The notes below the pieces were generated by a model. The model ran no database searches, was not told the origin of the DNA, and saw nothing but the letters and a program-made list of their open reading frames with translations. From positions 1-54,040 of the forward strand of contig JAGWPY010000017.1 of the NCBI GenBank assembly GCA_028870275.1: a stretch of DNA of 54,040 nucleotides, in the 5' to 3' direction. Shown here one piece after another: positions 13,273-37,116 of the stretch. Each line of letters starts with the position of its first letter. Within the stretch, counting starts at the first letter, position 1. Position numbers and translations under genes: made by a program. The stretch is from Gammaproteobacteria bacterium (GTDB lineage: Bacteria > Pseudomonadota > Gammaproteobacteria > Steroidobacterales > Steroidobacteraceae).

Positions 13273-15330
13273 ATGAACCCTGATCTGCATCGATTGATCG
13301 CGCCCCGCAGCATCGCCCTGATCGGTGCGGGAGCCTGGACCGACGCGGTTGCCGCGGGTGCCCGGGCGATAGGCTATGAGGGCACGATCTGGCGTGTGCA
13401 TCCGACCCGCTCGTCGACCGCGGACCTCACCTATTATCGCTCGGTCGATGAATTGCCGGATGCGCCCGACTCGGCCTTTCTCGCGGTTCCGAACACCGAC
13501 GTTCCCGGCGTCGCGGCGGCGCTCGCTCGTCGCGGCGCCGGCGGGTTCGTCTGCTTCAGTTCCGGGTTTTCCGAGACCGGCGGCGAGACAGGCCTGCGTC
13601 TCACCGAGGATCTGCGCGCTGCGGCCGGCGACCTGCCCTTCTTCGGTCCCAACTGCTACGGATTCGTGAATTTCTTCGATCGGGTCGCGATGATGCCGGA
13701 CCAGATCGTCGGCGCCCCGCCGGAGCGCGGCGTCGCGTTGATCTGTCAGAGCGGTACGCTGGCGCTCACCCTGATGTTCAACGACCGCTCCCTGCCGATC
13801 GGCGCGCTGTTCACGGTGGGCAATCAGACACGCATCGCCGTGGAGGACCTGATCGAGGTGCTCTCGGCCGACCCGCGGGTCACCGCGTTTGGTCTGTATC
13901 TGGAAGGAATCCAGGATCCGCAGCGCTTCGCCCGGGCCGCGGAGACCGCGCGGCGCGCCGGCAAGCCGATCGCGGCGATCAAGTCGGGACGCACCGCGGC
14001 GGCGGCGCGCACCGCGCACAGCCATACCGGCGCACTCGCCGGTGCCGACGCCGTGTTCGAGGCGTTTTGTCGTCAGGCCGGCATCGCGCGCTGCGACACC
14101 CTCGCATCGCTCTGCGAGACCCTGAAGGTCTTCCACCTGGGCGGGCCCACTCGCGGCCGCAAAGTGCTGGTCATGGGCGCCTCCGGCGGGGACATGGCGA
14201 TGACCGCCGACGTCTCGCGCGACCTTGCCCTCGATTTCGCGCCGCTTCCCGCGCAGGGATCGGCCAGACTCGCGGCGCTGCTCGGCGAGCGCGTCACCGT
14301 TGCCAACCCGTTCGACCTGCACACCTATCTCTGGTTCGACCCGCCCGCCCTGCGCAAGGTCTTCTCGACCGTGTTCGAGAGCGGCTACGACGCGGTCGGC
14401 TTCATGCTGGATTGTCCGCCGGACGGGAAGTCCGATACGGCGGCGTTCGACGTGGTGATCGACGAGTACATCGATGCCGCGCGCGGTGTCCCGCCACGCG
14501 TCGCGCTGATCGCCTCCCTTCCCGAAACCATGGGCGCACGCATCCGCGGCAACTGCCTGCGCGGCGGCGTGGTTCCGCTGCAGGGACTGCGCGAGGCCCT
14601 CGAGGCCTTTACCGCGGCCGGTGCCGTCGGCGAGGCTTGGAGCGGCCCGGGGGTTGGCCTGCAGATACCCGAGCCGGCCGCGGCGACGCGCACTCGCACA
14701 CTGAGCGAGTACGACGGCAAGACGGTGTTGCGTGGCGCCGGGGTTTCGGTACCGCGCAGCGTCCTCGCCTCCTCCGCCAATGCCGCGGACGCAGCCGCAT
14801 CGATCGGCTTTCCCGTGGTGATCAAGGCCGTCGGTGCCCATCTCGAACACAAGACCGAGGTCGGCGGAGTGGCTCTCGACCTGCGCGACCGCGCCGCGGC
14901 GGAAGCTGCGGCCGAACGGCTGGGCGCGCTCTCGCCGACCTTGCTGGTCGAGGAGATGATCACCGACGCGGTGGCCGAGATCCTGGTCGGGGTCGTCGTC
15001 GACCCGCAGTTCGGCCAGGTGCTGGTGATCGGCGCGGGCGGCGTACTCACCGAACTGGTGGCCGACAGCGTGAGCCTGCTGCCGCCCTGGGACGCGGGCT
15101 CCATCCGCGGCGCGATCGCACAGCTGAAGGCGGCCCGGCTGATCGGCGGCTATCGTGGCAAACCCGCGGGCGATCTCGATGCGCTGGTCGAGGCGGTCAC
15201 GCGGATCGCGGCTTATGCCACCGACCAGCGCGATCGACTCGTCGAGCTCGACGTCAACCCGCTGATCGTACGTCCGATCGGCCGGGGTGTGGTCGCCGTC
15301 GACGTACTGCTGAGATTGCTCCAGGAGTGA
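13273..15330 (+). CDS. NDP(ADP)-forming acyl-CoA synthetase (ACD superfamily, CoA-binding plus ATP-grasp)
   Basis: IAPRSIALIGAG...; GPNCYGFVNFFDR; IKSGRTAAAARTAHSHTGALAGADAVFEAFCRQAGI (catalytic His region); C-terminal ATP-grasp GFPVVIKAVGAHLEHKTEVGGVALDL. Confidence 0.85.
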   Translation: MNPDLHRLIAPRSIALIGAGAWTDAVAAGARAIGYEGTIWRVHPTRSSTADLTYYRSVDELPDAPDSAFLAVPNTDVPGVAAALARRGAGGFVCFSSGFSETGGETGLRLTEDLRAAAGDLPFFGPNCYGFVNFFDRVAMMPDQIVGAPPERGVALICQSGTLALTLMFNDRSLPIGALFTVGNQTRIAVEDLIEVLSADPRVTAFGLYLEGIQDPQRFARAAETARRAGKPIAAIKSGRTAAAARTAHSHTGALAGADAVFEAFCRQAGIARCDTLASLCETLKVFHLGGPTRGRKVLVMGASGGDMAMTADVSRDLALDFAPLPAQGSARLAALLGERVTVANPFDLHTYLWFDPPALRKVFSTVFESGYDAVGFMLDCPPDGKSDTAAFDVVIDEYIDAARGVPPRVALIASLPETMGARIRGNCLRGGVVPLQGLREALEAFTAAGAVGEAWSGPGVGLQIPEPAAATRTRTLSEYDGKTVLRGAGVSVPRSVLASSANAADAAASIGFPVVIKAVGAHLEHKTEVGGVALDLRDRAAAEAAAERLGALSPTLLVEEMITDAVAEILVGVVVDPQFGQVLVIGAGGVLTELVADSVSLLPPWDAGSIRGAIAQLKAARLIGGYRGKPAGDLDALVEAVTRIAAYATDQRDRLVELDVNPLIVRPIGRGVVAVDVLLRLLQE

Positions 15331-17369: not shown

Positions 17370-17993
17370 TCAGGCATTGGCCGCGTTGCGCGGCTGCTTC
17401 GCTTCGGCCCATTCGCGCAGCAGGTCCAGTTGCAGGCGGAGCTGCGCGAGCTGGGCCGTCGCCGGCCAATCGGCCGGACTCGTGACGGCGCTGGCGGTGA
17501 CCCCGTTGATCAGCGTGACCACCGAGCGCAGCACGGTGTCGCGTACCGGCTTGGGCCAGCTCTTGCTGGCCGGCCAGTGCGCCGCGAAACAGCGCGCGTA
17601 CAGACGCATGTATTCCCGGTGCACCCAGCCGTTCAGGCGTCGCAGCTTCCGGTCCGCGGGCACCTGCGCCCAGAACGCCATCCAGAACGCGCACTCCGTG
17701 AACCGCTGCGCGTCGAGAGGCAGGAGCTCGGCCAGCACCCCGGAGAGGTCCGGCGCGCCGCTCGAGTGGCGGCGCGTGAGACGGTCCTCGATGCGCGTCA
17801 GCATCAGACGCAGGCTCGCGAGAATGATCTGCTGCTTGGAATCGTAGTAATGCGCGATCATGCCGGTCGTGTAGCCGGCGGCCTTGGCGATCCGGGCGAC
17901 CGTCGCGTGCTCGAAGCCATGCGTCGCGACCACCTGGCAGGTGACCTGGGCGATCTGTTCGCGCCGCTCGGCATGATCGACGATCTTCGGCAT
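17370..17993 (-). CDS. TetR/AcrR-family (BetI-like) transcriptional regulator
   Basis: MPKIVDHAERREQIAQVTCQVVATHGFEHATVARIAKAAGYTTGMIAHYYDSKQQIILASLRL. Confidence 0.85.
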   Translation of the reverse strand: MPKIVDHAERREQIAQVTCQVVATHGFEHATVARIAKAAGYTTGMIAHYYDSKQQIILASLRLMLTRIEDRLTRRHSSGAPDLSGVLAELLPLDAQRFTECAFWMAFWAQVPADRKLRRLNGWVHREYMRLYARCFAAHWPASKSWPKPVRDTVLRSVVTLINGVTASAVTSPADWPATAQLAQLRLQLDLLREWAEAKQPRNAANA

Positions 17994-18006
17994 CCGTTCG
18001 CCCCGT

Positions 18007-19491
18007 TCAGCCCCGGGCGCCGCCGACGCGCGCACCCGATTCTGCGGGAACGGGCAGTGCCGAATGCGCCTTTCGGATACGCTCGAGCCGCGCGCGCACG
18101 CCGGGGGCGACGGGCGCCGCTTTGGCCGCCGCCGTGTCGACGTGCAGATGCATCTGTTCGCCGGTCGCGATCAGCTGATCGTCGTGACGGCGATGCAGGC
18201 GATGGAAAACGTGCAGCCTCTTCTCGTCGAGGGCCAGGACTTGCGTGGTCACGTAGACCGGCTCGCCGGACTTGACCTCGCGCAGGAAGCGCACGTGGGT
18301 CTCTACGTCGTAGTACATCCCCCCGGCCTTGCGGTAGGCCTCGTCGAGTCCCGCGAGCCGGTACAGCGCATCCATGGCATCGCCCATCAGCATCATGTAG
18401 CGATAGTCGGTCATGTGGGCGTTGTAATCGACCCACTCCGGCCGTACGACCGTATCGAGCAGGCGCAGCGGTCTGGCCGCATCGAGGTCGACCGCCTCCG
18501 GGGCGACCGCCGCGTCTTGATAGAGCCGCTCCTCGAGCGCGCGCAGCGTCGAACCCGCGCCGATGTCGAACTGGCGCAGCACCTGCTGGATCGCCACGAG
18601 GTAGTCATCGCGCAGGCGCTCGAGCTCGCGGATCGAACGACCGGCCGCTTGCTGCTGGGTGCCCTCCACCATCCGGTCGATCAGAGTCTCACTGAGCTCC
18701 GGCGCCTCGAGTTTCGTCCAGGGCCACTTCAGGCAGGGTCCGAACTGGGCCAGCATGTGCCGCATGCCGGACTCGCCGCCGGCGAGGTGGTAGATCATGT
18801 TCGTGCCCATGGCGGCCCAGCGCAGTCCTGGGCCGTAGACGATCGACTCGTCGAGCTCGCCCGTGGTCGCCACGCCGTCGTTCACCATGTGGAGGATCTC
18901 CCGCCACAGGGCCTCCTGCAGACGGTCGGTCAGGTGGCCGGGAACCTCGTGGCGGACGTGCAGCGGGTGCATGCCGATGTAGCGGAAGTATTCGGCCGCG
19001 GCCGCGATCGTGGACGCGGAGGTCTGCTTGCCCCCGACCAGTTCCACGAGCGGCAGTAGGTACACCGGATTGAAAGGATGCGCGACCAGGAACCGCTCGG
19101 GGCCGACCATGTCGCGCTGCAGATCCGTCGGCATGAGTCCGGAGGTGCTCGAGGCGATCAGCACGTCGGCGCCGGTGTGCCGGCTCACTTCCGCGAGCAT
19201 CTTCTGCTTGAGCGGCAGCTGCTCGGGGATGTTCTCCTGGATGAAGTCGGCACGCGCCGCCATCTCGCGAAGGTCCGTGGTGAAGGAAAGCTTGCCCTTC
19301 GGGGGCAACGGTGCGAACGTCAGCCGCGCCAGCGCCGGTTCGGCGTTGGCGACCGCACCGCGCAGCCATTCCTCCATCTCCGGCTTCACGTCGGCCGCGA
19401 TCACGTCGATACCGAAATGCAAGGCGCGCGCGGCCCAGCCGCCGCCGATCACACCGGTACCCAGGAGTCCCAGAGTCTTCACTTTCCTCAC
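18007..19491 (-). CDS. L-carnitine 3-dehydrogenase fused to betainyl-CoA thioesterase domain
   Basis: N-term KVKTLGLLGTGVIGGGWAARALHFGIDVIAADVKPEMEEWLR...VAHPFNPVYLLPLVELVGG; C-term hotdog VRPEWVDYNAHMTDYRYMMLMGDAMDALYRLAGL. Confidence 0.88.
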   Translation of the reverse strand: MRKVKTLGLLGTGVIGGGWAARALHFGIDVIAADVKPEMEEWLRGAVANAEPALARLTFAPLPPKGKLSFTTDLREMAARADFIQENIPEQLPLKQKMLAEVSRHTGADVLIASSTSGLMPTDLQRDMVGPERFLVAHPFNPVYLLPLVELVGGKQTSASTIAAAAEYFRYIGMHPLHVRHEVPGHLTDRLQEALWREILHMVNDGVATTGELDESIVYGPGLRWAAMGTNMIYHLAGGESGMRHMLAQFGPCLKWPWTKLEAPELSETLIDRMVEGTQQQAAGRSIRELERLRDDYLVAIQQVLRQFDIGAGSTLRALEERLYQDAAVAPEAVDLDAARPLRLLDTVVRPEWVDYNAHMTDYRYMMLMGDAMDALYRLAGLDEAYRKAGGMYYDVETHVRFLREVKSGEPVYVTTQVLALDEKRLHVFHRLHRRHDDQLIATGEQMHLHVDTAAAKAAPVAPGVRARLERIRKAHSALPVPAESGARVGGARG

Positions 19492-23501: not shown

Positions 23502-25102
23502 GCCGCCATCCTTCGGCCCAGGTCGCGCAGCACGGCTCGTGCCGCGTTCGCACCCGGCGCACCCATGACGCCGCCGCCGGGATGCGTGCTGGAGCCGCAC
23601 AGATACAAACCGCGGATCGGCGTGCGGTATTGCGCATAGCCGGGGATCGGCCGGTTGAACAGCAGCTGATCCATGGTCAGCTCGCCCTGGAAGATGTTGC
23701 CCTCGGTGAGTCCGACCTCGCGCTCGATATCCCAGGGGGTGCGGATCTCGGCATGCAGGATCAGCTTCTTGAAATCGGGGCTCTGCCGACCGATGGTCTC
23801 GATGACGGTGTCGCCAAATGCACGTCGCCGCTCGTCGTTCCAGGGTCCGTCCGCGAGCTCGTAGGGACAATACTGGACGAAGACCGACATGTAATGCTTG
23901 CCGTGCGGCGCCATGGTCGGATCGATCTGCGAGGGGATCAGCATGTCGATGTATGGAGCCCGGGACCAGCGCCCGGCCTTCCAGTCATCGTAGGCGCGCT
24001 CCATCATCTCGATCGTGTCGGTGACATGCATGTCGCCGCGAATGCAAGGGGCGCCCGCCGGAATCGCCGGGAAGCTCGGCAGGCCGTCGAGAGCGATGTT
24101 CAGCTTTCCGGAAGAACCGCGGATCTTGAAATTTCTCACTCGGGAGACGAACTCCTCCGGGAGCCATTCCAGGTCGATCGATTCGAGGAAGGTGCGCTTC
24201 AGATCCATGTTGGACAGCACCAGCCGTGCGGCGATCTCCTCGCCGTTCTGCAGCCGCACGCCGACCGCGCGGCCGCCCCGCACCAGGATCCGCTCCACGC
24301 CGGCGCCGGTGCGTACCTCGCCGCCGCTCTCCTGCAGCGAGGCCGCCAGGGCATTGCTGATCGAACCCATGCCGCCGCGCGCGAATCCCCAGGCCCCGAC
24401 GGTGTCGTCGATGTCGCCCATGTAGTGGTGCAGCAGCACGTAGGCCGTGCCGGGCGAGCGGGGACCGAGCGCCGTGCCGATGATCGAGCTGCCCGCCAGG
24501 TGCGCTTTGACGATCTCGCTCTCGAAGTACTCGTCGAGGAAGTCGGCCGCGCTCATCGTCCAGAAGCGCAGCGTGTCGCACATGCCCCGCTCGCCGAGGC
24601 CATGGAAACGCCGGGCGAGATACAGAAGCTCCATCAGGTCGCGGGGCTTGAACGAAGTCGGATCCGGTGGCTCGCGCAACAGGAGAGGCTTGATGAACTT
24701 GCACTGGCGGATCATGTCGCGCGAATAGCGTTCGTAGGCTTCGGCGTCGTGCTTCGAGTGCCGAGCGATCTCCCGGTAGAGCGCGTCGTGGTTGTCGTAG
24801 AGCGCGAGGTGACCTCCGTCGCGCATCATCGTGCAGCCGCCCTCGTAGGGAATCACCTGCAGACCATGCCGCGGCAGTTCGAGCGTGCGCATGATCTCCG
24901 GGCGCAGCAGGCTGCAGACGTAGGAGCAGTTCGAATAGGTGAACTGCGGATAGAGGCTGCGGCTGACGGCGGCGCCGCCGACGTACGGGTTGCGTTCGAC
25001 GACCGTCGTGCTGAGGCCCGCGCGCGCCAGATAACAGGCGGCGACCAGTCCGTTGTGCCCGGCGCCTACGACCAGCGCGTCGACGGCGCGCGCGCGGCTC
25101 AA
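23498..25102 (-). CDS. FAD-dependent oxidoreductase, phytoene-desaturase-like (B)
   Basis: TTG start at 25102 overlaps upstream stop (TTGA); VDALVVGAGHNGLVAACYLARAGLSTTVVERNPYVGGAAVSRSLYPQFTYSNCSYVCSLL; LYLCGSSTHPGGGVMGAPGANAARAVL. Confidence 0.85.
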   Translation of the reverse strand: MSRARAVDALVVGAGHNGLVAACYLARAGLSTTVVERNPYVGGAAVSRSLYPQFTYSNCSYVCSLLRPEIMRTLELPRHGLQVIPYEGGCTMMRDGGHLALYDNHDALYREIARHSKHDAEAYERYSRDMIRQCKFIKPLLLREPPDPTSFKPRDLMELLYLARRFHGLGERGMCDTLRFWTMSAADFLDEYFESEIVKAHLAGSSIIGTALGPRSPGTAYVLLHHYMGDIDDTVGAWGFARGGMGSISNALAASLQESGGEVRTGAGVERILVRGGRAVGVRLQNGEEIAARLVLSNMDLKRTFLESIDLEWLPEEFVSRVRNFKIRGSSGKLNIALDGLPSFPAIPAGAPCIRGDMHVTDTIEMMERAYDDWKAGRWSRAPYIDMLIPSQIDPTMAPHGKHYMSVFVQYCPYELADGPWNDERRRAFGDTVIETIGRQSPDFKKLILHAEIRTPWDIEREVGLTEGNIFQGELTMDQLLFNRPIPGYAQYRTPIRGLYLCGSSTHPGGGVMGAPGANAARAVLRDLGRRMAA

Positions 25103-26439
25103 GCCGGCGCCCGCGCGGAGGCCGCGGCGGTTCCGCGCGTGGATTCGATGGTCGCGTCGACCGCCTTCTCGAAGGCCGTGAGGGTGTCGGCGAGGCAGGA
25201 ATCGTCGTGTGCGGCGCAGACGAACCAGGGCTCCCGCGAGTCCGGCTCGCACAGCACACCCTCGTCGTGCAGGACCCTGGCCATCGCGTCGTAGAAGGTG
25301 TAATCGCTACCCTTCCAAGCGCGGTAATTGCGCGGCGGATCCTTGGCGAAATAGAGACCGCTCATCGAGGGGTGGCCCACGAAACTGTGCGCGATGCCAC
25401 GCGCATCGAGCACGCGACGCATGCCGCCGCGCAACCGCACGCCATAATCGGCAATACGCTCGAGCGCGTCGGTTTCGTCGAGGATCTGCAGCGTGCGCTC
25501 CGCCGCAGCCAGGGATACCGAATGCGCGGTATAGGTGCCTCCATGCGCGACTCCCCGGCCGAGTTTGCGCATGATGTGCTCGCGGCCGGCGAGTACCGAG
25601 ATCGGGTAACCGTTGGCGACGGCCTTGGCGAATGTGCACAGGTCCGCGTGTACGCCGTAGAGCTGCTGGACCCCGCCGCGGGCGACGCGGAAGCCGGTCT
25701 TCACCTCGTCGATCAGCAGCACGACGCCATGGCGGTCGCACAGTTCGCGGGCCGCCCGCAGGTATTCGGGCTCCGCCGCGATGCCGAGGCAGTTCCCCAT
25801 GATCGGCTCGATCAGCAGACAGGCGATGCGCTGGCCAAAGCGCTTGAAGACGTCCTCGAGCTGGTTCGCGTCGTTCGCCTGCACGAAGTGGGCGAAGCTC
25901 CGCGAGCTGAGCGGCACGCCCTGGCTGTACGGCTTGACCTCGGGATCGCCGACCTGGGACCACTGATCCATCGGCGTGAACCACATGGCCGCGTCGAACA
26001 GGCCGTGATAGCTGCCCTCGAGGATCACGTAATCGTCGCGACCGGTGAAGGCCCGCGCCAGCCGCAGGCCGGCCATGACGGCTTCCGTCCCGGAATTCGA
26101 GAAGCGCACGAGCTCGGCCGCCGGTACCATCTTGGCGATGCGATCGGCGACGATCAGTTCCCGCTCGGTCGACAGCGCGAATACGCCGCCGACCTTCATT
26201 CCTTCCCGGGCAGCCTCGTCGACCCGGGTATCGGCGTAGCCCAGGATGCCCGGACCATAGCCCATCCGGTAATCCACGTACCAGTTGTCGTCGAGATCGA
26301 CGATCCGCGCCCCGCGCCCGTGCTTGACGTAGATGGTGCGATCGTCCCCCCAATAGCGGAAGTTCGAGGCGACGCCGAGCGGCAGACGGGCGAGCGCACG
26401 ACGGAAGTGCGCATTGTTGTTGGTCATCTTACGGCTCAT
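25099..26439 (-). CDS. Class III aminotransferase (glutamate-1-semialdehyde aminomutase-like)
   Basis: NSGTEAVMAGLRLARAFTGRDDYVILEGSYHG; LLIDEVKTGFRVARGG; LCTFAKAVANGYPISVLAG. Confidence 0.85.
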   Translation of the reverse strand: MSRKMTNNNAHFRRALARLPLGVASNFRYWGDDRTIYVKHGRGARIVDLDDNWYVDYRMGYGPGILGYADTRVDEAAREGMKVGGVFALSTERELIVADRIAKMVPAAELVRFSNSGTEAVMAGLRLARAFTGRDDYVILEGSYHGLFDAAMWFTPMDQWSQVGDPEVKPYSQGVPLSSRSFAHFVQANDANQLEDVFKRFGQRIACLLIEPIMGNCLGIAAEPEYLRAARELCDRHGVVLLIDEVKTGFRVARGGVQQLYGVHADLCTFAKAVANGYPISVLAGREHIMRKLGRGVAHGGTYTAHSVSLAAAERTLQILDETDALERIADYGVRLRGGMRRVLDARGIAHSFVGHPSMSGLYFAKDPPRNYRAWKGSDYTFYDAMARVLHDEGVLCEPDSREPWFVCAAHDDSCLADTLTAFEKAVDATIESTRGTAAASARAPA

Positions 26440-26482: not shown

Positions 26483-26498
26483 TTATATCGTTATATAA
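26483..26498. promoter_or_regulatory. Operator candidate A: TTATAT-CGTT-ATATAA
   Basis: Perfect 6-bp arms; ~45 bp upstream of the aminotransferase start (26439). Confidence 0.6.
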
Positions 26499-26672: not shown

Positions 26673-27839
26673 ATGTCCGCTACCCCCGCCGTCGCTTCGG
26701 CCACCGCTTCGCGTCCCGCCCGCGCCCTGCCCGCCTGGGTGTACGAGCACGCCGGCCTGCACCGCCTGGAGCTCGAGCGCATGCTGCTGCCGAGCTGGCA
26801 GATCGCCTGCCACGTCAACTCGATCCCGATGGTCGGCGATTACGTGACGCTCGATCTGGCCGGCGAGAGCGCGATCGTGGTTCGCGACCGCGGGGGTGTG
26901 ATCAAGGCTTTTCACAACGTCTGCCGACACCGAGGCGCCCGACTGCTCGACGGGTCGGGACATTGCCGCGGCACGATCACCTGCCCTTATCACGGCTGGT
27001 CCTATCGGACCGACGGCAGCCTGCTCGCGGTGCCGGCGCGCGAGTCGTTCCCGCTCCTCGAGCGCGAGCGCCACGGGCTCAAGGAGCTGCGCACCGAAAC
27101 GGTGTTCGGATTCGTGTTCGTCGCCTTCGCGGGCGATCCCCCCTCGATCGCGCGCTCGTTCGCGCCCTTCGCCGCCGAGCTCGCGCCCTACCGGTTCGAG
27201 AGCATGGTGCCGCTCGGCCCGATCACCTACGAGGAATGGGAGGTCGACTGGAAGATCGCGATGGACAACTACCTCGAGTCCTATCATGTGCCGATCGGTC
27301 ATCCAGGCCTCAACCGCATGTTTACCCCGGATTATGAGGACCAGTCGCACGTGCCAGGCATCGCACGCGGCGTGAGTTGGATGCGGACCCAGGAGTCCTC
27401 GCGCTGGTCGGAGCGCATGTATCAGCGTCTGGCCCCCCGTGTGGTCGACGATCTGCCGCCGACTCTGCGCAACTGCTGGAGGTTCTACAGCCTGCTGCCG
27501 AACATCGGCATCGACGTCTTTCCCGAGCAGATGGATTTCTTCCAGGTCATTCCCCGCGGTCCGGGTCGCTGCGTGATCCGCAGCGCACTGTTCGGCCGCG
27601 AGGACGCGCGTCCGCAGATGCGGACGTTGCGCTATCTGAGCAACCGGATCAACAAGGAGGTCAACGCCGAGGACCGGCGCCTCTGTTCCCGGGTGCAGCG
27701 CGGACTGCGTTCGAGCAGCTACGAGCCGGGGCCGCTGTCGGGAATCGAGCGCTGGATGCTCGAGTTCCACGATCTTCTTCGTGAGCGCATTCCGGAGATC
27801 GGGCTGCCGGCCGCCCCGGCTCACCTGGCCCGCGCCTGA
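26673..27839 (+). CDS. Rieske non-heme iron oxygenase alpha subunit
   Basis: AFHNVCRHRGARLLDGSGHCRGTITCPYHGWSY (Rieske CxH/CxxH); VDWKIAMDNYLESYHVPIGHPG (mononuclear Fe site). Confidence 0.9.
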   Translation: MSATPAVASATASRPARALPAWVYEHAGLHRLELERMLLPSWQIACHVNSIPMVGDYVTLDLAGESAIVVRDRGGVIKAFHNVCRHRGARLLDGSGHCRGTITCPYHGWSYRTDGSLLAVPARESFPLLERERHGLKELRTETVFGFVFVAFAGDPPSIARSFAPFAAELAPYRFESMVPLGPITYEEWEVDWKIAMDNYLESYHVPIGHPGLNRMFTPDYEDQSHVPGIARGVSWMRTQESSRWSERMYQRLAPRVVDDLPPTLRNCWRFYSLLPNIGIDVFPEQMDFFQVIPRGPGRCVIRSALFGREDARPQMRTLRYLSNRINKEVNAEDRRLCSRVQRGLRSSSYEPGPLSGIERWMLEFHDLLRERIPEIGLPAAPAHLARA

Positions 27840-27872: not shown

Positions 27873-29588
27873 TCAGCGACCGCTTCGCGCGATCCGCCGC
27901 CGATACCAGTCCCGGAAGGCGGCGACCGGAGCGCTCACGGCCGCCGTCGGAGTGCCCTGATAACCGAACGCGACCACGGCTCGCTGCATCGACTCGACTA
28001 CCGCGTCCGCCTCGCGACTGCCGCAGCGGGCGAGACGGCGCGCGAGGAAGGCCATCGCGAGGGATTCGCGTCCGTCGGACTCGAATTGGAATTCCGCATG
28101 AACGAGCCGGCAGCGTCCGACCGCCTCGGGCAGGACCTGCAGGACAGCGATGCCATCGCCGCGGATCTCGAGCCAGCGATTCGGTGCGACGAAGCAGCGG
28201 CGCCAAGTCATCGGGCCGCCGTCGCCCTGCAGCCTGCGCAGACGCTCGACGGTCCAGCCACCGAACGACTCGGTGAGGCGCGCCTGCCAGTCGCATCGAC
28301 CGGTCGCCGAATCGGTCGTCAGACGGATCTGCGACCAAGTGGTGTCCGGACCCGCAGCTTCAGGCATGGTGAGGTCGAGACATTGTTCGACGACCAGCTT
28401 CCAGTCCGCGGCGACGCCGCGCGCGTGGTAGCGGCCGGGATTCATTGGGCCAAGCCGCTGCAGCGCCTCGATCCAGGAATCGGGCTCCGCGGAGGCGTCT
28501 GGCCCTTCGCCGAGGCGTACCAGGACCAGGCCGCCGACGAGCGCGGTTTCGAAGGCGCGCAGCCCCTGCGAGCCGCCCGAGTCCGCCGGCGCACCTTCCA
28601 GCGTGACCTTCGCACCATGCAGGCGGCAGCGGATGCCCTCGGGCCCGAACGTCCCGATGCCGTCGGCGACCAGGTCGTGCGGCTGCACGGGACAGCAGTT
28701 GCGGAAGGCCCGCAGTACGCGGTCGGCGCCACGCACCAGGAGGACCCGCTCGGCGTACAGATCCAGCGCTCGATATCGCCCCGCCTCCACGAGCCCCGCC
28801 TCGGCCCCCGCGAACTGCCAGGCGTCGGTGAAGAGCGCGCGTCGCTCTGCCGACTCGAGGGGGTCCGAGTCATGACGGGACAGAGGCAGGGGCGCCTGTG
28901 GCGCTTCGACGGGCTCGTTGGAAACGAAGCGCCCGGGAAAGACCGAACGCAGATAGGCGAAACAGCGGCGTCGCGCCGCGGGCCGATCGATCTGGTTCTC
29001 GTCGCGAAACGCGAAATCCTGCCAGAGCATCTCGAGCACGCCGATCAAGCCGAGTGCGATGCCGTCGGCATCGAGCTGACGCAGGCCCGTCCGGGTGATC
29101 AGACGCTCGACCAGTTCGCGCACGAGGGCCGCGAAACGCTCGTCCTTGTTGCCGCAGATGTCGTAGTATTCCTGGCGCGAGCTCGCCTCGCCCCAGAACG
29201 AGTACCAGACGGACACCTTGCGAGTGCTGGCGATCTCAGGATCGAGGTACAGATGCACCAGAGTCTCGAGCGCCGCGACCGGATCCTCCTTCAGCGCGGC
29301 AACCGGCTGCAGGACCTTCTCCTCGAACTCCGTGGAGAGGAACTGCAGCGAAGCGACCAGCATCGAGGCCTTCGATGCGAAATAGAACCGCACGATGCCC
29401 GGCGACATGTGGGCGATGTCCACGACCTTCTCCACGGTCGTGCGCGACGGTCCATACAGGTGCAGAGCCGAGATGCAGGCATCGATGAGGTGTTGGCGCT
29501 GGCGACCGTGGGTCGCGCGCGCACCCCGACCCGCGCCGCTCGCAGCGGCGACTCTGCGGCCGGGACGCGCCTTGGTCTTGCGCGGCAC
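27873..29588 (-). CDS. TetR-family regulator fused to degenerate Rieske-type oxygenase domain (predicted pseudoenzyme sensor)
   Basis: N-term HLIDACISALHLYGPSRTTVEKVVDIAHMSPGIVRFYFASKASMLVASLQFL (TetR HTH); C-term WQFAGAEAGLVEAGRYRALDLYAERVLLVRGADRVLRAFRNCCPVQPHDLVADGIGTFGPEGIRCRLHGAKV...ADWKLVVEQCLDLTMPEAAGPDTTW, aligning with the 26673 Rieske protein. GTG start at 29588 (ORF open to 29666). Confidence 0.8.
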   Translation of the reverse strand: MPRKTKARPGRRVAAASGAGRGARATHGRQRQHLIDACISALHLYGPSRTTVEKVVDIAHMSPGIVRFYFASKASMLVASLQFLSTEFEEKVLQPVAALKEDPVAALETLVHLYLDPEIASTRKVSVWYSFWGEASSRQEYYDICGNKDERFAALVRELVERLITRTGLRQLDADGIALGLIGVLEMLWQDFAFRDENQIDRPAARRRCFAYLRSVFPGRFVSNEPVEAPQAPLPLSRHDSDPLESAERRALFTDAWQFAGAEAGLVEAGRYRALDLYAERVLLVRGADRVLRAFRNCCPVQPHDLVADGIGTFGPEGIRCRLHGAKVTLEGAPADSGGSQGLRAFETALVGGLVLVRLGEGPDASAEPDSWIEALQRLGPMNPGRYHARGVAADWKLVVEQCLDLTMPEAAGPDTTWSQIRLTTDSATGRCDWQARLTESFGGWTVERLRRLQGDGGPMTWRRCFVAPNRWLEIRGDGIAVLQVLPEAVGRCRLVHAEFQFESDGRESLAMAFLARRLARCGSREADAVVESMQRAVVAFGYQGTPTAAVSAPVAAFRDWYRRRIARSGR

Positions 29589-29612: not shown

Positions 29613-30536
29613 GTGAGCGGAGCGAGCGCCGTCGGAGCGCGGATCGCGCGTCGGGCTTCCCGGCATGCGCGCTGGCTGATCATCCTTCCGCCGCTGATGT
29701 ACCTGTTCGTGTTCTTCCTCATACCGTTCGCGTTCGCATTGAAGATCAGTCTTGCGGACCTCGCCCTTAGGGTACCGCCGTTCACCGACATTCTAACCAT
29801 GTCGCACGGCGACCACATCCGCCTGTCGCTGAACCTGGGCAACTACCGGTACCTGTTCACCGACGACCTGTACATCCTTTCATACCTGTATTCCCTGCGC
29901 ACGGCGTTCTTCTCGACGCTGATCTGCCTGCTGATCGGCTACCCCATGGCCTATGCGATCGCACGGGCGCCGAAGAGCACGCAGAACGTGCTGCTGCTGG
30001 TGATCATCCTGCCGTTCTGGACCTCGTTCCTGCTGCGCGTGTACGCCCTGGAAGGCATCATTCAGGAACACGGTCTGCTCAATTCGCTGCTGCTTCGGTT
30101 CGGCCTGATCCACCATCCTCTGCAGATCATGCAGACCACCCTCGCCGTGTATCTGGGCATCGTCTACTCCTACCTGCCCTTCATGGTCCTGCCGCTGTTC
30201 GCGACGCTGGAGAAACTCGATATAGCGCTGCTCGAAGCGGCGGCCGACCTCGGCAGCCCGCCGTGGCGGGTGTTCCTCGAGGTGACTTTGCCGTTGTCCA
30301 TGCCCGGGGTGATCGCCGGCTCGATGCTGGTGTTCATTCCGGCGATCGGCGAATTCGTGATCCCCTCGCTGCTCGGCGGTCCGAACAATCTGATGATCGG
30401 ACGCGTGCTCTGGGACGAGTTCTTCGGAAACCGCGACTGGCCCGTGGCCGCCGCGGTGTCGATCGTGTTCCTGGTCTTTCTCGCCGGCCCTATCGCCGTG
30501 TATCAGCATTACAGCGTCAAGCAGATCGAGACCTGA
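29613..30536 (+). CDS. potB: Polyamine-type ABC transporter permease (PotB-like)
   Basis: Membrane protein; EAAADLGSPPWRVFLEVTLPLSMPGVIAGSMLVFIPAIGEFVIPSLLGGPNNLMIGRVLWDEFF. Confidence 0.88.
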   Translation: MSGASAVGARIARRASRHARWLIILPPLMYLFVFFLIPFAFALKISLADLALRVPPFTDILTMSHGDHIRLSLNLGNYRYLFTDDLYILSYLYSLRTAFFSTLICLLIGYPMAYAIARAPKSTQNVLLLVIILPFWTSFLLRVYALEGIIQEHGLLNSLLLRFGLIHHPLQIMQTTLAVYLGIVYSYLPFMVLPLFATLEKLDIALLEAAADLGSPPWRVFLEVTLPLSMPGVIAGSMLVFIPAIGEFVIPSLLGGPNNLMIGRVLWDEFFGNRDWPVAAAVSIVFLVFLAGPIAVYQHYSVKQIET

Positions 30537-30540
30537 GCGG

Positions 30541-31371
30541 ATGTCGAGGGCTGCCACACCGGTCGCAACCACGATCCTGTACCTCGGCATCGCGATCCTG
30601 TATCTGCCGATGGTGGTGCTGATCGCCTATTCGTTCAACGCATCCCCGTTGGTGAGCGTCTGGGGCGGTTTCTCGGTCGATTGGTACCTGCGCCTGCTGC
30701 ACGACGAACAGATCCTCGCGGCGGCCTGGCTGTCGCTGCGCATCGGCGTCGCGGTCTCCACGGTTGCGCTCCTGCTCGGCACACTGGCGGCCGTCGCGCT
30801 GGTGCGATTCCGGCGGTTTCGCGGACGCTTGCTGCTGTCCGGAATGGTGAACGCGCCCCTGGTCATGCCGGAAATCATCACCGGCATCACCCAGTTGCTG
30901 CTGTTCATCTCCATGCTCCACGTGCTCGGCTGGCCGCACCGCGGCGCGTTGACGATCCTGATCGCCCATGTGACCTTCTGCACCGCCTACGTCACGGTCA
31001 CGGTGCAGTCGCGGCTGCAATCGGCCGACCGCGCGCTCGAGGAAGCCGCCATGGACCTCGGCGCCGGTCCGGTCGCCGCCTTCCTCGACACGACACTGCC
31101 GATCATCGCGCCCGCCCTGCTGTCCAGCTGGCTGCTGTGCCTCACGCTGTCGCTCGACGACCTGGTGATTTCCAGCCTGGTCTCGGGTCCGGGCGCGAGC
31201 ACCCTGCCGATGGTCATCTACTCCAAGGTCAAGCTCGGTGTGACTCCGGACATCAATGCGCTCGCCAGTCTCATCATCAGCGTCGTCGGTGTCGCCGTGC
31301 TGATCGCGGGCGGAACGATGCGCCGCGCCGAGAAGCGCCGGCTGCTCGAACGGCAGCAGACCGGCTCCTGA
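30541..31371 (+). CDS. potC: Polyamine-type ABC transporter permease (PotC-like)
   Basis: EEAAMDLGAGPVAAFLDTTLPIIAPALLSSWLLCLTLSLDDLVISSLVSGPGASTLPMVIYSKVKLGVTPDINALA. Confidence 0.88.
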   Translation: MSRAATPVATTILYLGIAILYLPMVVLIAYSFNASPLVSVWGGFSVDWYLRLLHDEQILAAAWLSLRIGVAVSTVALLLGTLAAVALVRFRRFRGRLLLSGMVNAPLVMPEIITGITQLLLFISMLHVLGWPHRGALTILIAHVTFCTAYVTVTVQSRLQSADRALEEAAMDLGAGPVAAFLDTTLPIIAPALLSSWLLCLTLSLDDLVISSLVSGPGASTLPMVIYSKVKLGVTPDINALASLIISVVGVAVLIAGGTMRRAEKRRLLERQQTGS

Positions 31372-34556: not shown

Positions 34557-36995
34557 TCAGCCGCCGCCGAACCGGTAACGGATGTGCAGCCCGAACACCC
34601 GCGGCTCATTGGTGGTCTGTCGGTGATCGTAGTTGTAGGTGTTCACGTAGACCACCGCGCGCGTGTTGTCGAGATTGGTCACATAGGCCTCGACGCTCCA
34701 GACATCGTCAGCCGTGTGCACGCCGGTACGCAGGTTCGCGATGTTGAATTGCGGCTGCAGGGAACGATTGTCGAACCGCAGATCGCTCCACATGGATCCG
34801 GTATGCGATACGTCATACTGCAGGTAACCGACCCAGTCGCGCAGGACCGGCCGCTCGTAACGCGCCGAGGCACTCGCCTTCACGTAGGGAATGAATGGCA
34901 GACGCTCGTTGCCGACCACGGGGAAATTGGCATCGGTGTAGGTGGTCCTGGTGAGCCGCGAGTCGTTGTAAGCGAGCGAGACCGACAGGGTCAGGCCCTC
35001 GACCGGGCGCGCATCGAAATTCGTCTCGGCGCCGTATACTCGTGCATCGCCGATGTTCGCGTTGAACGTGTTCGGGCAGATCGACAGGTCGTACACCGCC
35101 GCCTGGTAGCCCTTCCAGGGCATGTAATAGACCGCGCCGTTCCATCTGTACCGGCCGTCCTTGAAGAGCAGTTTCCAGCCGAGCTCGTAGCTGTCGAGCG
35201 TGTCCGGTGAGAAGCTCGCGGGCACGCCCTTCGGGTAACAGTTCGCCTCGGTGTTGAAGCCGCCGTCGCGGAAACCCTGCGCGTAGGAGAAATAATACAG
35301 ACTGGTCGGCGTCGCCTGGAAATTGACGCCGGCCTTGTAATCGATCTTCGAGGACGAGCCGTTCGCGACGCCGCTCGGAACCTTGGGCTGATAGAAATAG
35401 CCGCCCCACAGGCTTCCCGCCGAGAAACGCGAGCGAAAGTCGCGCAGGCCGAACGTGAGGCTCCAGCGGCTGGTCAGGTCCTGGGTGAGTTCTCCAAAAG
35501 CCGCGACCTGGTGGTTGTCCTGGCGCGAATCGCTGCTGTACCACTCCTCGGGCAGGGGGTTGCCACCGTAGTAGCTGATGTAGCTCGCGGCCTGGCTGCC
35601 TTGGAAGTTGATGCCCGGCATCGTGTAGAAATAGCTGTACCGGTCCTTGGTCTGTTCGTAGTACAGGCCGGCGGTCCAGTGAGTCGTGCCGCCCGGCTTG
35701 GACTGGAGTCGGACCTCGTGGGACCAGCGGAAGGTCTGCTCGTGATAGTCGTAGTAGAGCGTCGGCACGTTGCAGCCGCTGAACGTGGGCGGCGTGGTCG
35801 TCGGGTCGTAGCTCTGACAGGCGAACGCCTGTACTTTGTCGGCCGTGACCGAGGGCGTGTTGACGTACTGCGCGTACTCCGAATATTCGTTGACCTGGTG
35901 GTTCGATCGGCTGAAATAGCCGCCGGCGTAGACGAGATCGGCGATGCCGAGGTCGCCGTCGACCGTGAGCGACATGATCCGGTTGTAGCGATCCTGGGAC
36001 TCTGGACCGAAGCGCGCGACGTTGCGATCGCCATTGACGCTCGGATTCTGATCCCAGGCGCCATGCACTTTCTGGTGCTGGAAATTCGCGCTGAGCGTCG
36101 CTTTCCAGCGGTCGCCGAACTCCTGGAGCCAGGCCACCCGCCCACCGGCGTACTGCTCGTGGTTGTAGTTGTTGCCGGCCCATTCCGCGTTGGTGCTCGT
36201 GGTGCCGTTGACCCATTGACGGGTCTCGAGCAGGTTGTCGATGAACCCGCCCTTCTTGACCAGGTAGCCCGACATGCGCAGCGCCGACCGGCCGCCGCCG
36301 AACGGCAGATTGACGTAGCCCTCGACGCTGTCGTTCAGTCCTCCGCCGTCGATCTGGCCGCCGTCGAGATCCATCCCGCCCGAGAACCGGTGCGGATCCG
36401 GCTTGTTGGTGATCACCCGGATCGCGCCGGACATCGAACTTGCGCCGAACAGCGTGCCCTGGGGGCCGTTCAGCACCTCGATCCGCGCGATGTCGTAGGC
36501 ATGGAGGTCGGGGATGCCGCCGTAGTAGCTCAGCGACTGTTCGTCGAGATAATAGCCGGTGGTCGAGGTATTCTGATTGTTCGGGCTGCTGCCATCGGAT
36601 ACGCCCCGCATGAAGAACTGCTGGTACCCGGGGCCTATGCTGATGTAAGAAACCGAGGGCGCCTTGGTCGCGTAGTCCTCGAACTGCGTGATACCGAGCC
36701 GCTGCAGCGACTTCGCGTCGAACACGTCGATGCTCTCAGGAACCTTCTGCAGGTCCTCGCTGCGCTTTCGGGCGGTCACGACGATCTCGGCCAGGCTGTC
36801 CGACGGGGCGCCGGTCTGCGACTCGGCCGAGGGCGCGGCGGCGGCGTTCGCGGAGCGGGCAGCCCCTGCGCCGCCGTAGAGCGCCGTGGCGATGGCGATC
36901 TCGAGCGCCGCGGCCCCGGCGCGGCGACCGACACTCGGCCTTCTGGCGGCGCGCGCTTCGCGCCGGAGCGTTGCAACGTAGGCCGATCTGATCAT
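34557..36995 (-). CDS. TonB-dependent outer-membrane receptor
   Basis: LAEIVVTARKRSEDLQKVPESIDVFDAKSLQRLGITQFEDY; ARIEVLNGPQGTLFGASSMSGAIRVIT; C-terminal FGLHIRYRFGGG. Confidence 0.92.
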   Translation of the reverse strand: MIRSAYVATLRREARAARRPSVGRRAGAAALEIAIATALYGGAGAARSANAAAAPSAESQTGAPSDSLAEIVVTARKRSEDLQKVPESIDVFDAKSLQRLGITQFEDYATKAPSVSYISIGPGYQQFFMRGVSDGSSPNNQNTSTTGYYLDEQSLSYYGGIPDLHAYDIARIEVLNGPQGTLFGASSMSGAIRVITNKPDPHRFSGGMDLDGGQIDGGGLNDSVEGYVNLPFGGGRSALRMSGYLVKKGGFIDNLLETRQWVNGTTSTNAEWAGNNYNHEQYAGGRVAWLQEFGDRWKATLSANFQHQKVHGAWDQNPSVNGDRNVARFGPESQDRYNRIMSLTVDGDLGIADLVYAGGYFSRSNHQVNEYSEYAQYVNTPSVTADKVQAFACQSYDPTTTPPTFSGCNVPTLYYDYHEQTFRWSHEVRLQSKPGGTTHWTAGLYYEQTKDRYSYFYTMPGINFQGSQAASYISYYGGNPLPEEWYSSDSRQDNHQVAAFGELTQDLTSRWSLTFGLRDFRSRFSAGSLWGGYFYQPKVPSGVANGSSSKIDYKAGVNFQATPTSLYYFSYAQGFRDGGFNTEANCYPKGVPASFSPDTLDSYELGWKLLFKDGRYRWNGAVYYMPWKGYQAAVYDLSICPNTFNANIGDARVYGAETNFDARPVEGLTLSVSLAYNDSRLTRTTYTDANFPVVGNERLPFIPYVKASASARYERPVLRDWVGYLQYDVSHTGSMWSDLRFDNRSLQPQFNIANLRTGVHTADDVWSVEAYVTNLDNTRAVVYVNTYNYDHRQTTNEPRVFGLHIRYRFGGG

Positions 36996-37079
36996 CCCGA
37001 GCCTCCCTCGCCGAGTCACCGTGGACGCGATGCGCGTCGACGTATGTTTAGCGAAGCGCCCGGGCGCCGTCAACAAAAA

Positions 37080-37095
37080 TTATATGTGCGTATAA
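37080..37095. promoter_or_regulatory. Operator candidate C: TTATAT-GTGC-GTATAA
   Basis: 11/12 arm matches to sites A/B; ~85 bp upstream of the TonB receptor start. Confidence 0.5.
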
Positions 37096-37100
37096 CTCGA

Positions 37101-37116
37101 TGATATCTCCATATAG
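37101..37116. promoter_or_regulatory. Operator candidate D: TGATAT-CTCC-ATATAG
   Basis: 10/12 arm matches; centre 21 bp from site C. Confidence 0.35.

Follow-up and report, generated by a model that had tools for sequence, protein, structure and literature searches.

One gene in the window (the whole 54,040-nt stretch of DNA analyzed) encodes a BetI-type TetR regulator joined, in one reading frame, to a degenerate Rieske oxygenase of the Group-V (CntA/GbcA-like) type (Table 1). Across homologues, the fused domain has lost its iron triad but retains an invariant Cys/His quartet and is under purifying selection; the surrounding gene order and a set of operator-like palindromes are likewise conserved. 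The best overall explanation, to which we assign a probability of about 50%, is that the fused domain serves as a metal-retaining pseudo-oxygenase co-sensor on a quaternary- or methylated-amine repressor.

Table 1. Features of the fusion locus, with positions in the window
Feature	Position	Strand	Remarks
TetR–pseudo-Rieske-oxygenase fusion gene	27873..29588	minus	571 aa, GTG start
BetI-type TetR domain, residues 24-221	28926..29519	minus	Pfam; helix-turn-helix and TetR_C_6 ligand domain
Pseudo-Rieske-oxygenase domain, residues 240-571	27876..28871	minus	Pfam; AF2 model most similar to CntA among solved folds (TMt 0.68)
Rearranged Rieske loops: C299, V301 (His lost), H304 (new invariant His), C321, H324	28617..28694	minus	42-homologue alignment
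Former mononuclear-iron segment from W396	28347..28403	minus	Both His lost; C403 at CntA Y203 position, D405 at bridging E205 position
Intact Group-V-like Rieske oxygenase	26673..27839	plus	Pfam, NCBIfam; convergent with fusion gene
Class-III aminotransferase	25099..26439	minus	Divergent from oxygenase
PotB/PotC-like ABC permeases	29613..31371	plus	Divergent from fusion gene; conserved gene order
Operator 1 (predicted), TTATATCGTTATATAA	26483..26498		Overlaps -10 of sigma70-like aminotransferase promoter (TTGCCA-16-TATAAT); location conserved in relatives
Operator 2 (predicted), TTATATGCGCATATAA	26628..26643		About 30 bp upstream of oxygenase start
Paired operator-like sites	37080..37116		Just upstream of TonB-dependent receptor gene (34557-37076, minus)

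Domain architecture and distribution

The open reading frame runs through both parts without interruption, as the first-pass annotation had described. Codon-position GC favors the minus strand (GC3 = 0.82) and not the long opposite-strand ORF. An in-frame ATG lies at 29666, overlapping the PotB gene. Pfam placed two domains above their cutoffs, TetR_C_6 (1.3e-12; 48.4 bits versus 27) and Rieske (4.6e-4), while TetR_N (22.1 versus 24 bits) and Ring_hydroxyl_A (21.0 versus 24.9) fell slightly short in the window copy. The helix-turn-helix of TetR_N is nevertheless recognizable, with residues 31-73 largely invariant across 42 homologues. Against the BetI equivalog model (NCBIfam TIGR03384), the window TetR reached 71.4 bits, compared with a cutoff of 201.3. 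Structure prediction agreed with the two-part reading: in the AF2 model (pLDDT 85), the TetR part is entirely helical and leads into a Rieske-oxygenase fold with Rieske loops at 90-95; at a pTM of 0.64, the placement of the two parts relative to each other is tentative. CntA was the top PDB match (6zgp, probability 1.00), accompanied by terephthalate dioxygenase and stachydrine demethylase, and also ranked first in a profile search. A short member lacking much of the catalytic half (L024) was still modeled with high confidence in its Rieske half and in what is left of the sheet.

A scan of GTDB contigs yielded 45 loci, nearly all from Steroidobacteraceae or unclassified gammaproteobacterial MAGs. 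TetR and Rieske-like parts share a single frame in about 55 of the 217 genomes of the window's family, a few of them cut by contig ends; in 13 of the 217, the TetR part stands by itself or is truncated, and 5 carry a fusion with intact catalytic ligands. The fusion architecture is conserved. Among 42 aligned homologues, mean pairwise identity is 73% for the TetR part (residues 29-221) versus 35% for the oxygenase part. In 16 close pairs, dN/dS spans 0.03-0.21 for the TetR part and 0.17-0.47 for the oxygenase part, which places the latter under constraint, weaker than that on the TetR part. By this sequence measure, the pseudo-oxygenase domain is subject to purifying selection. The homologues come from metagenome-assembled or uncultured sources, a circumstance that would suit an assembly artifact or a pseudogene; as dozens of independent assemblies show this in-frame fusion, with a conserved gene order and purifying selection, we regard that explanation as scarcely credible.

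Iron and Rieske ligands of the fused domain

CntA binds its Rieske cluster through C86, H88, C106, and H109 and its mononuclear iron through H208, H213, and D323, with E205 as the bridging residue (PMC7948474). Ligand positions in the 42 aligned fused proteins (set A1) were read against this enzyme. The motifs first quoted for the window copy are correct, namely NCCPVQP and CRLHG in the Rieske loops and EQCLDLTMPEAAGPD at the former iron site, where both His are gone. The His, His, Asp triad is lost in 42 of 42 copies, leaving none with a 2-His-1-carboxylate site. Having lost the 2-His-1-Asp iron site, the fused domain is not expected to carry out oxygenation; the loss of catalysis originally proposed for the window copy is well supported and extends to the whole set. 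The 18 neighboring true oxygenases that were compared all retain every ligand.

The Rieske site presents a different picture. Both Cys and the second His are present in all 42 fused domains, whereas the canonical His two residues after the first Cys, His(+2), is kept in 5 and absent from 37. The window copy has V301 at this position and so departs from the C-x-H ... C-x2-H pattern of [2Fe-2S] ligands. A His five residues after the same Cys (H304 in the window copy) is found in 42 of 42, preceded by Pro in 41. Inside the fused clade, His(+2) has changed at least four times and the Cys+5 His never, and the spacing Cys-x4-His...Cys-x2-His is invariant. The Rieske ligand set is therefore altered, not merely one His short. 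The initial expectation that no metal site remains is supported for the iron triad but not for the Rieske loops.

The history of the Cys+5 residue bears on its likely role. In the neighboring true oxygenases, this position is Ala, Thr, or Ser. A Cys+5 His stands beside the canonical His in CntA and in eight of nine TetR–Rieske fusions with intact ligands (see below), which suggests that it is probably older than the loss of His(+2). Given this coexistence, its conservation could also have a reason other than metal binding. The position equates to Cys144 of the mitochondrial bc1 Rieske protein, which is disulfide-bonded to the second cluster loop, so a residue at Cys+5 sits next to the cluster. 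The Cys+5 His could thus stand in for the lost His(+2) ligand. Conservation of the quartet in a domain of 35% mean identity argues for a retained metal center, which we consider likely.

Such a center might be [2Fe-2S], Zn, or Fe. In one rival version of the repressor, the Cys/His quartet would coordinate Zn in a structural role, or else mononuclear Fe, with the domain stabilizing the protein or binding a ligand and having no redox function. The four invariant residues form a C2H2 set, the C-x-H/C-x2-H pattern is broken in 37 of 42 copies, and Rieske cluster loops are similar to zinc-ribbon knuckles, a likeness that would favor such a site. Two observations speak against this version, which we rate as unlikely: the carboxylate that bridges the electron path (CntA Glu205 position) is still Glu or Asp in 33 of 42 fused domains, and intact relatives carry the full Rieske set.

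The substrate pocket supplies a further line of evidence. Tyr203 of CntA makes the pi-cation contact that holds the trimethylammonium group (PMC7948474). The equivalent residue is Tyr in true oxygenases, Trp in 37 of 42 fused domains, and Cys (C403) in the window copy. The prevalence of Trp here and of Glu or Asp at the Glu205 position counts in favor of the metal-retaining co-sensor; the Cys in the window copy, and several lineages that lack the domain, count against it. In the version built on the first-pass annotation, the fused domain is instead a metal-free pseudoenzyme that binds the substrate of the adjacent oxygenase and thereby drives release from DNA. The aromatic residue at the quaternary-ammonium position and the neighborhood of amine catabolism would be in keeping with that model, but the Cys/His quartet is among the most conserved features of the domain while the other CntA pocket positions vary, and some members have deletions of up to about 60 residues in the catalytic half. 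Moreover, the TetR part already possesses a well-conserved BetI-type ligand domain of its own, and repressors that have shed the oxygenase domain still go with these operators, so a role as sole sensor is not supported for the oxygenase domain. On balance, we judge the metal-free model to be quite improbable.

Gene neighborhood and predicted operators

Fused loci with enough flanking sequence share the order PotD-PotC-PotB-fusion-(ALDH)-oxygenase-aminotransferase-FAD-FAD-GcvT-PotA, where ALDH denotes aldehyde dehydrogenase and FAD an FAD oxidoreductase. The adjacent oxygenase is unambiguously of the Rieske type, with GbcA-type enzymes as relatives. Genes for carnitine 3-dehydrogenase and GcvT/demethylase-like proteins also lie nearby in the window. 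The aminotransferase scores best against the GntE transaminase family (419 bits, under the cutoff of 525). A second, unfused BetI-type TetR (17370-18035, minus strand) is encoded between the carnitine 3-dehydrogenase and acyl-CoA dehydrogenase genes. Many homologous clusters (nine loci) encode, next to the first Rieske oxygenase, another that is distinct from it (25-31% identity) and has an intact Rieske motif.

The palindrome TTATAT-N4-ATATAA, noted at the outset as a possible operator, is real: it occurs exactly at 26483 and 26628, with near matches at 37080 and 37101, versus 0.02 matches with two or fewer mismatches expected by chance in the whole window. Across loci, the consensus is YTATATGnnCATATAR. 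At the same tolerance, 33 of the 37 divergent oxygenase/aminotransferase regions contain the palindrome (0.45 expected), and these regions hold 54 sites versus 57 across the whole 639 kb of loci. Such conserved palindromes in promoters are as expected for TetR repressors, and we treat them as predicted operators. Their presence in the promoter of the adjacent oxygenase, together with the conserved gene order, upholds the proposed association between that enzyme and the fusion protein. Autoregulation through the same operator finds no support, with the palindrome in 1 of 42 TetR/PotB regions. Sigma70-like boxes overlapping the operator were seen in few relatives; the -10 overlap is thus based mainly on the window.

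In the window's own genome, the motif with at most one mismatch occurs at three places only: the oxygenase/aminotransferase promoter, the TonB receptor, and the promoter of an Oxidored_FMN flavoprotein/MttB-family pair. These positions fit a putative methylated-amine regulon. On contig C157 of genome G000 (13361-13397, locus L094), two operator-like palindromes lie 21 bp apart between Oxidored_FMN flavoprotein and MttB-family methyltransferase genes, a spacing equal to that of the pair before the TonB receptor. From the sequence evidence, a repressor role for the fusion protein is well supported. The operators persist at loci with an unfused TetR, indicating that the motif goes with the TetR part.

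Origin, proposed mechanism, and known systems

In the oxygenase tree, the fused domains form one clade (100/100). The first-pass annotation had related the fused domain to the neighboring oxygenase, yet a clade uniting the fused domains with the neighboring oxygenases was rejected (p-AU 0.003), and with it descent of the domain from that enzyme; catalytically intact TetR–oxygenase fusions also exist. The TetR tree nests three truncated lineages (L076; L077; L079/L080) among the fused forms, as it does one group of unfused repressors (L047-L050, L052). A single clade of all fused copies without unfused TetRs was rejected (p-AU 0.011), so the unfused and truncated forms are probably losses; the truncated ones still bear remnants of the oxygenase domain. 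In the unfused group, the repressor gene is also inverted, so that it immediately follows the oxygenase gene and is read the same way. Such repeated loss or truncation, operators that outlast the domain, and the much faster evolution of the oxygenase part would all be expected of a passenger on its way out, with the TetR part alone sensing and binding. All close pairs give a dN/dS under 0.5, and the Cys/His quartet is invariant family-wide; both are hard to square with this, and we hold a passenger to be unlikely.

Nine other genomes, from several orders of the class, encode TetR–Rieske fusions in which all four Rieske and all three iron ligands are present (9/9). In the three tested, all four Pfam domains, including TetR_N, exceed their cutoffs. 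Their TetR parts and those of the window family belong to one supported group (100/99), which also holds two unfused TetRs. Tree tests did not reject a single TetR–oxygenase fusion event for all forms (p 0.496 and 0.198). The simplest reading, though not proven, has one fusion and a later loss of catalysis; the intact fusions are plausibly the ancestral state and are candidate self-repressing oxygenases. At one locus (L086), a TetR gene overlaps the start of a separate same-strand Rieske oxygenase gene, forming a split counterpart of the fusion. A fuller scenario can be offered tentatively: a catalytically competent fusion, of a kind that persists in several lineages of Gammaproteobacteria, may have become a dedicated sensor by dropping its catalytic iron and moving the Rieske His from Cys+2 to Cys+5, and the state of that center, in redox or substrate terms, would now gate transcription of the true oxygenase.

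For the metal-retaining co-sensor, we infer the following mechanism. The TetR part would bind YTATATGnnCATATAR in the divergent oxygenase/aminotransferase promoter and repress the amine-catabolic regulon, its BetI-type pocket probably answering to a pathway amine. The C-terminal part, of Group-V-like Rieske oxygenase descent, would hold a metal through C299, H304, C321, and H324, the Cys+5 His replacing the lost Cys+2 His. This module may provide a second input, whether redox state, electron supply from the reductase of the oxygenase, or substrate, and tune repression such that synthesis of the costly oxygenase is confined to conditions under which it can turn over. That the center reports redox or substrate state is a proposal drawn from the conserved residues and an analogy with ThnY (below).

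If true, Rieske oxygenases would join the enzyme folds turned into transcriptional sensors. Catalytic fused, dead fused, and secondary-loss forms would coexist in related genomes, making each step of the conversion testable. Among metal sites, a Rieske-type center with a relocated His would be unusual, and a regulator coupled to the electron supply of an oxygenase would explain how bacteria avoid producing uncoupled oxygenase. The operator and regulon further draw attention to a methylated-amine pathway that has been little studied and that belongs to uncultured bacteria. In the literature and family libraries covered, a scope outside which most subscription journals fall, we found no description of a TetR–Rieske fusion, a comparable regulator–enzyme fusion, or a Rieske pseudoenzyme.

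Several known systems share parts of this arrangement. BetI-type TetR repressors have the same helix-turn-helix and TetR_C_6 ligand domain and control quaternary-amine genes; the fusion protein differs in scoring far under the BetI equivalog cutoff and in its extra 330-residue oxygenase-derived domain. With CntA and other Group-V oxygenases of carnitine, choline, and betaine, it shares the fold, the Rieske Cys/Cys/His, a mostly kept bridging carboxylate, and, in most copies, an aromatic counterpart of Tyr203, but it lacks the iron triad and, in 37 of 42 copies, His(+2), and it bears an N-terminal TetR. PutA of proline catabolism combines a redox enzyme and a DNA-binding repressor in one chain, though as a flavoenzyme with a ribbon-helix-helix. 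It is an analogue of the intact TetR–oxygenase fusions, each of which (9/9) is predicted to join full catalytic ligands to a DNA-binding domain in one chain, whereas the window copy is non-catalytic. In the ROK repressors NagC and Mlc, a DNA-binding domain is fused to an enzyme fold in which catalysis was lost and the metal site kept; these proteins have a sugar-kinase fold and a winged helix and are unrelated to the fusion in sequence. ThnY, which acts with ThnA3 in tetralin degradation, is a Rieske-system electron-transfer protein that evolved into a redox-linked regulator acting on the oxygenase genes of its own pathway; it is a ferredoxin-reductase homologue and a separate co-activator alongside a LysR regulator (PMC6563040). 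The likeness thus lies in a Rieske-system protein serving as a redox-linked regulator, while ThnY itself involves neither a fusion, nor a TetR, nor an oxygenase subunit.
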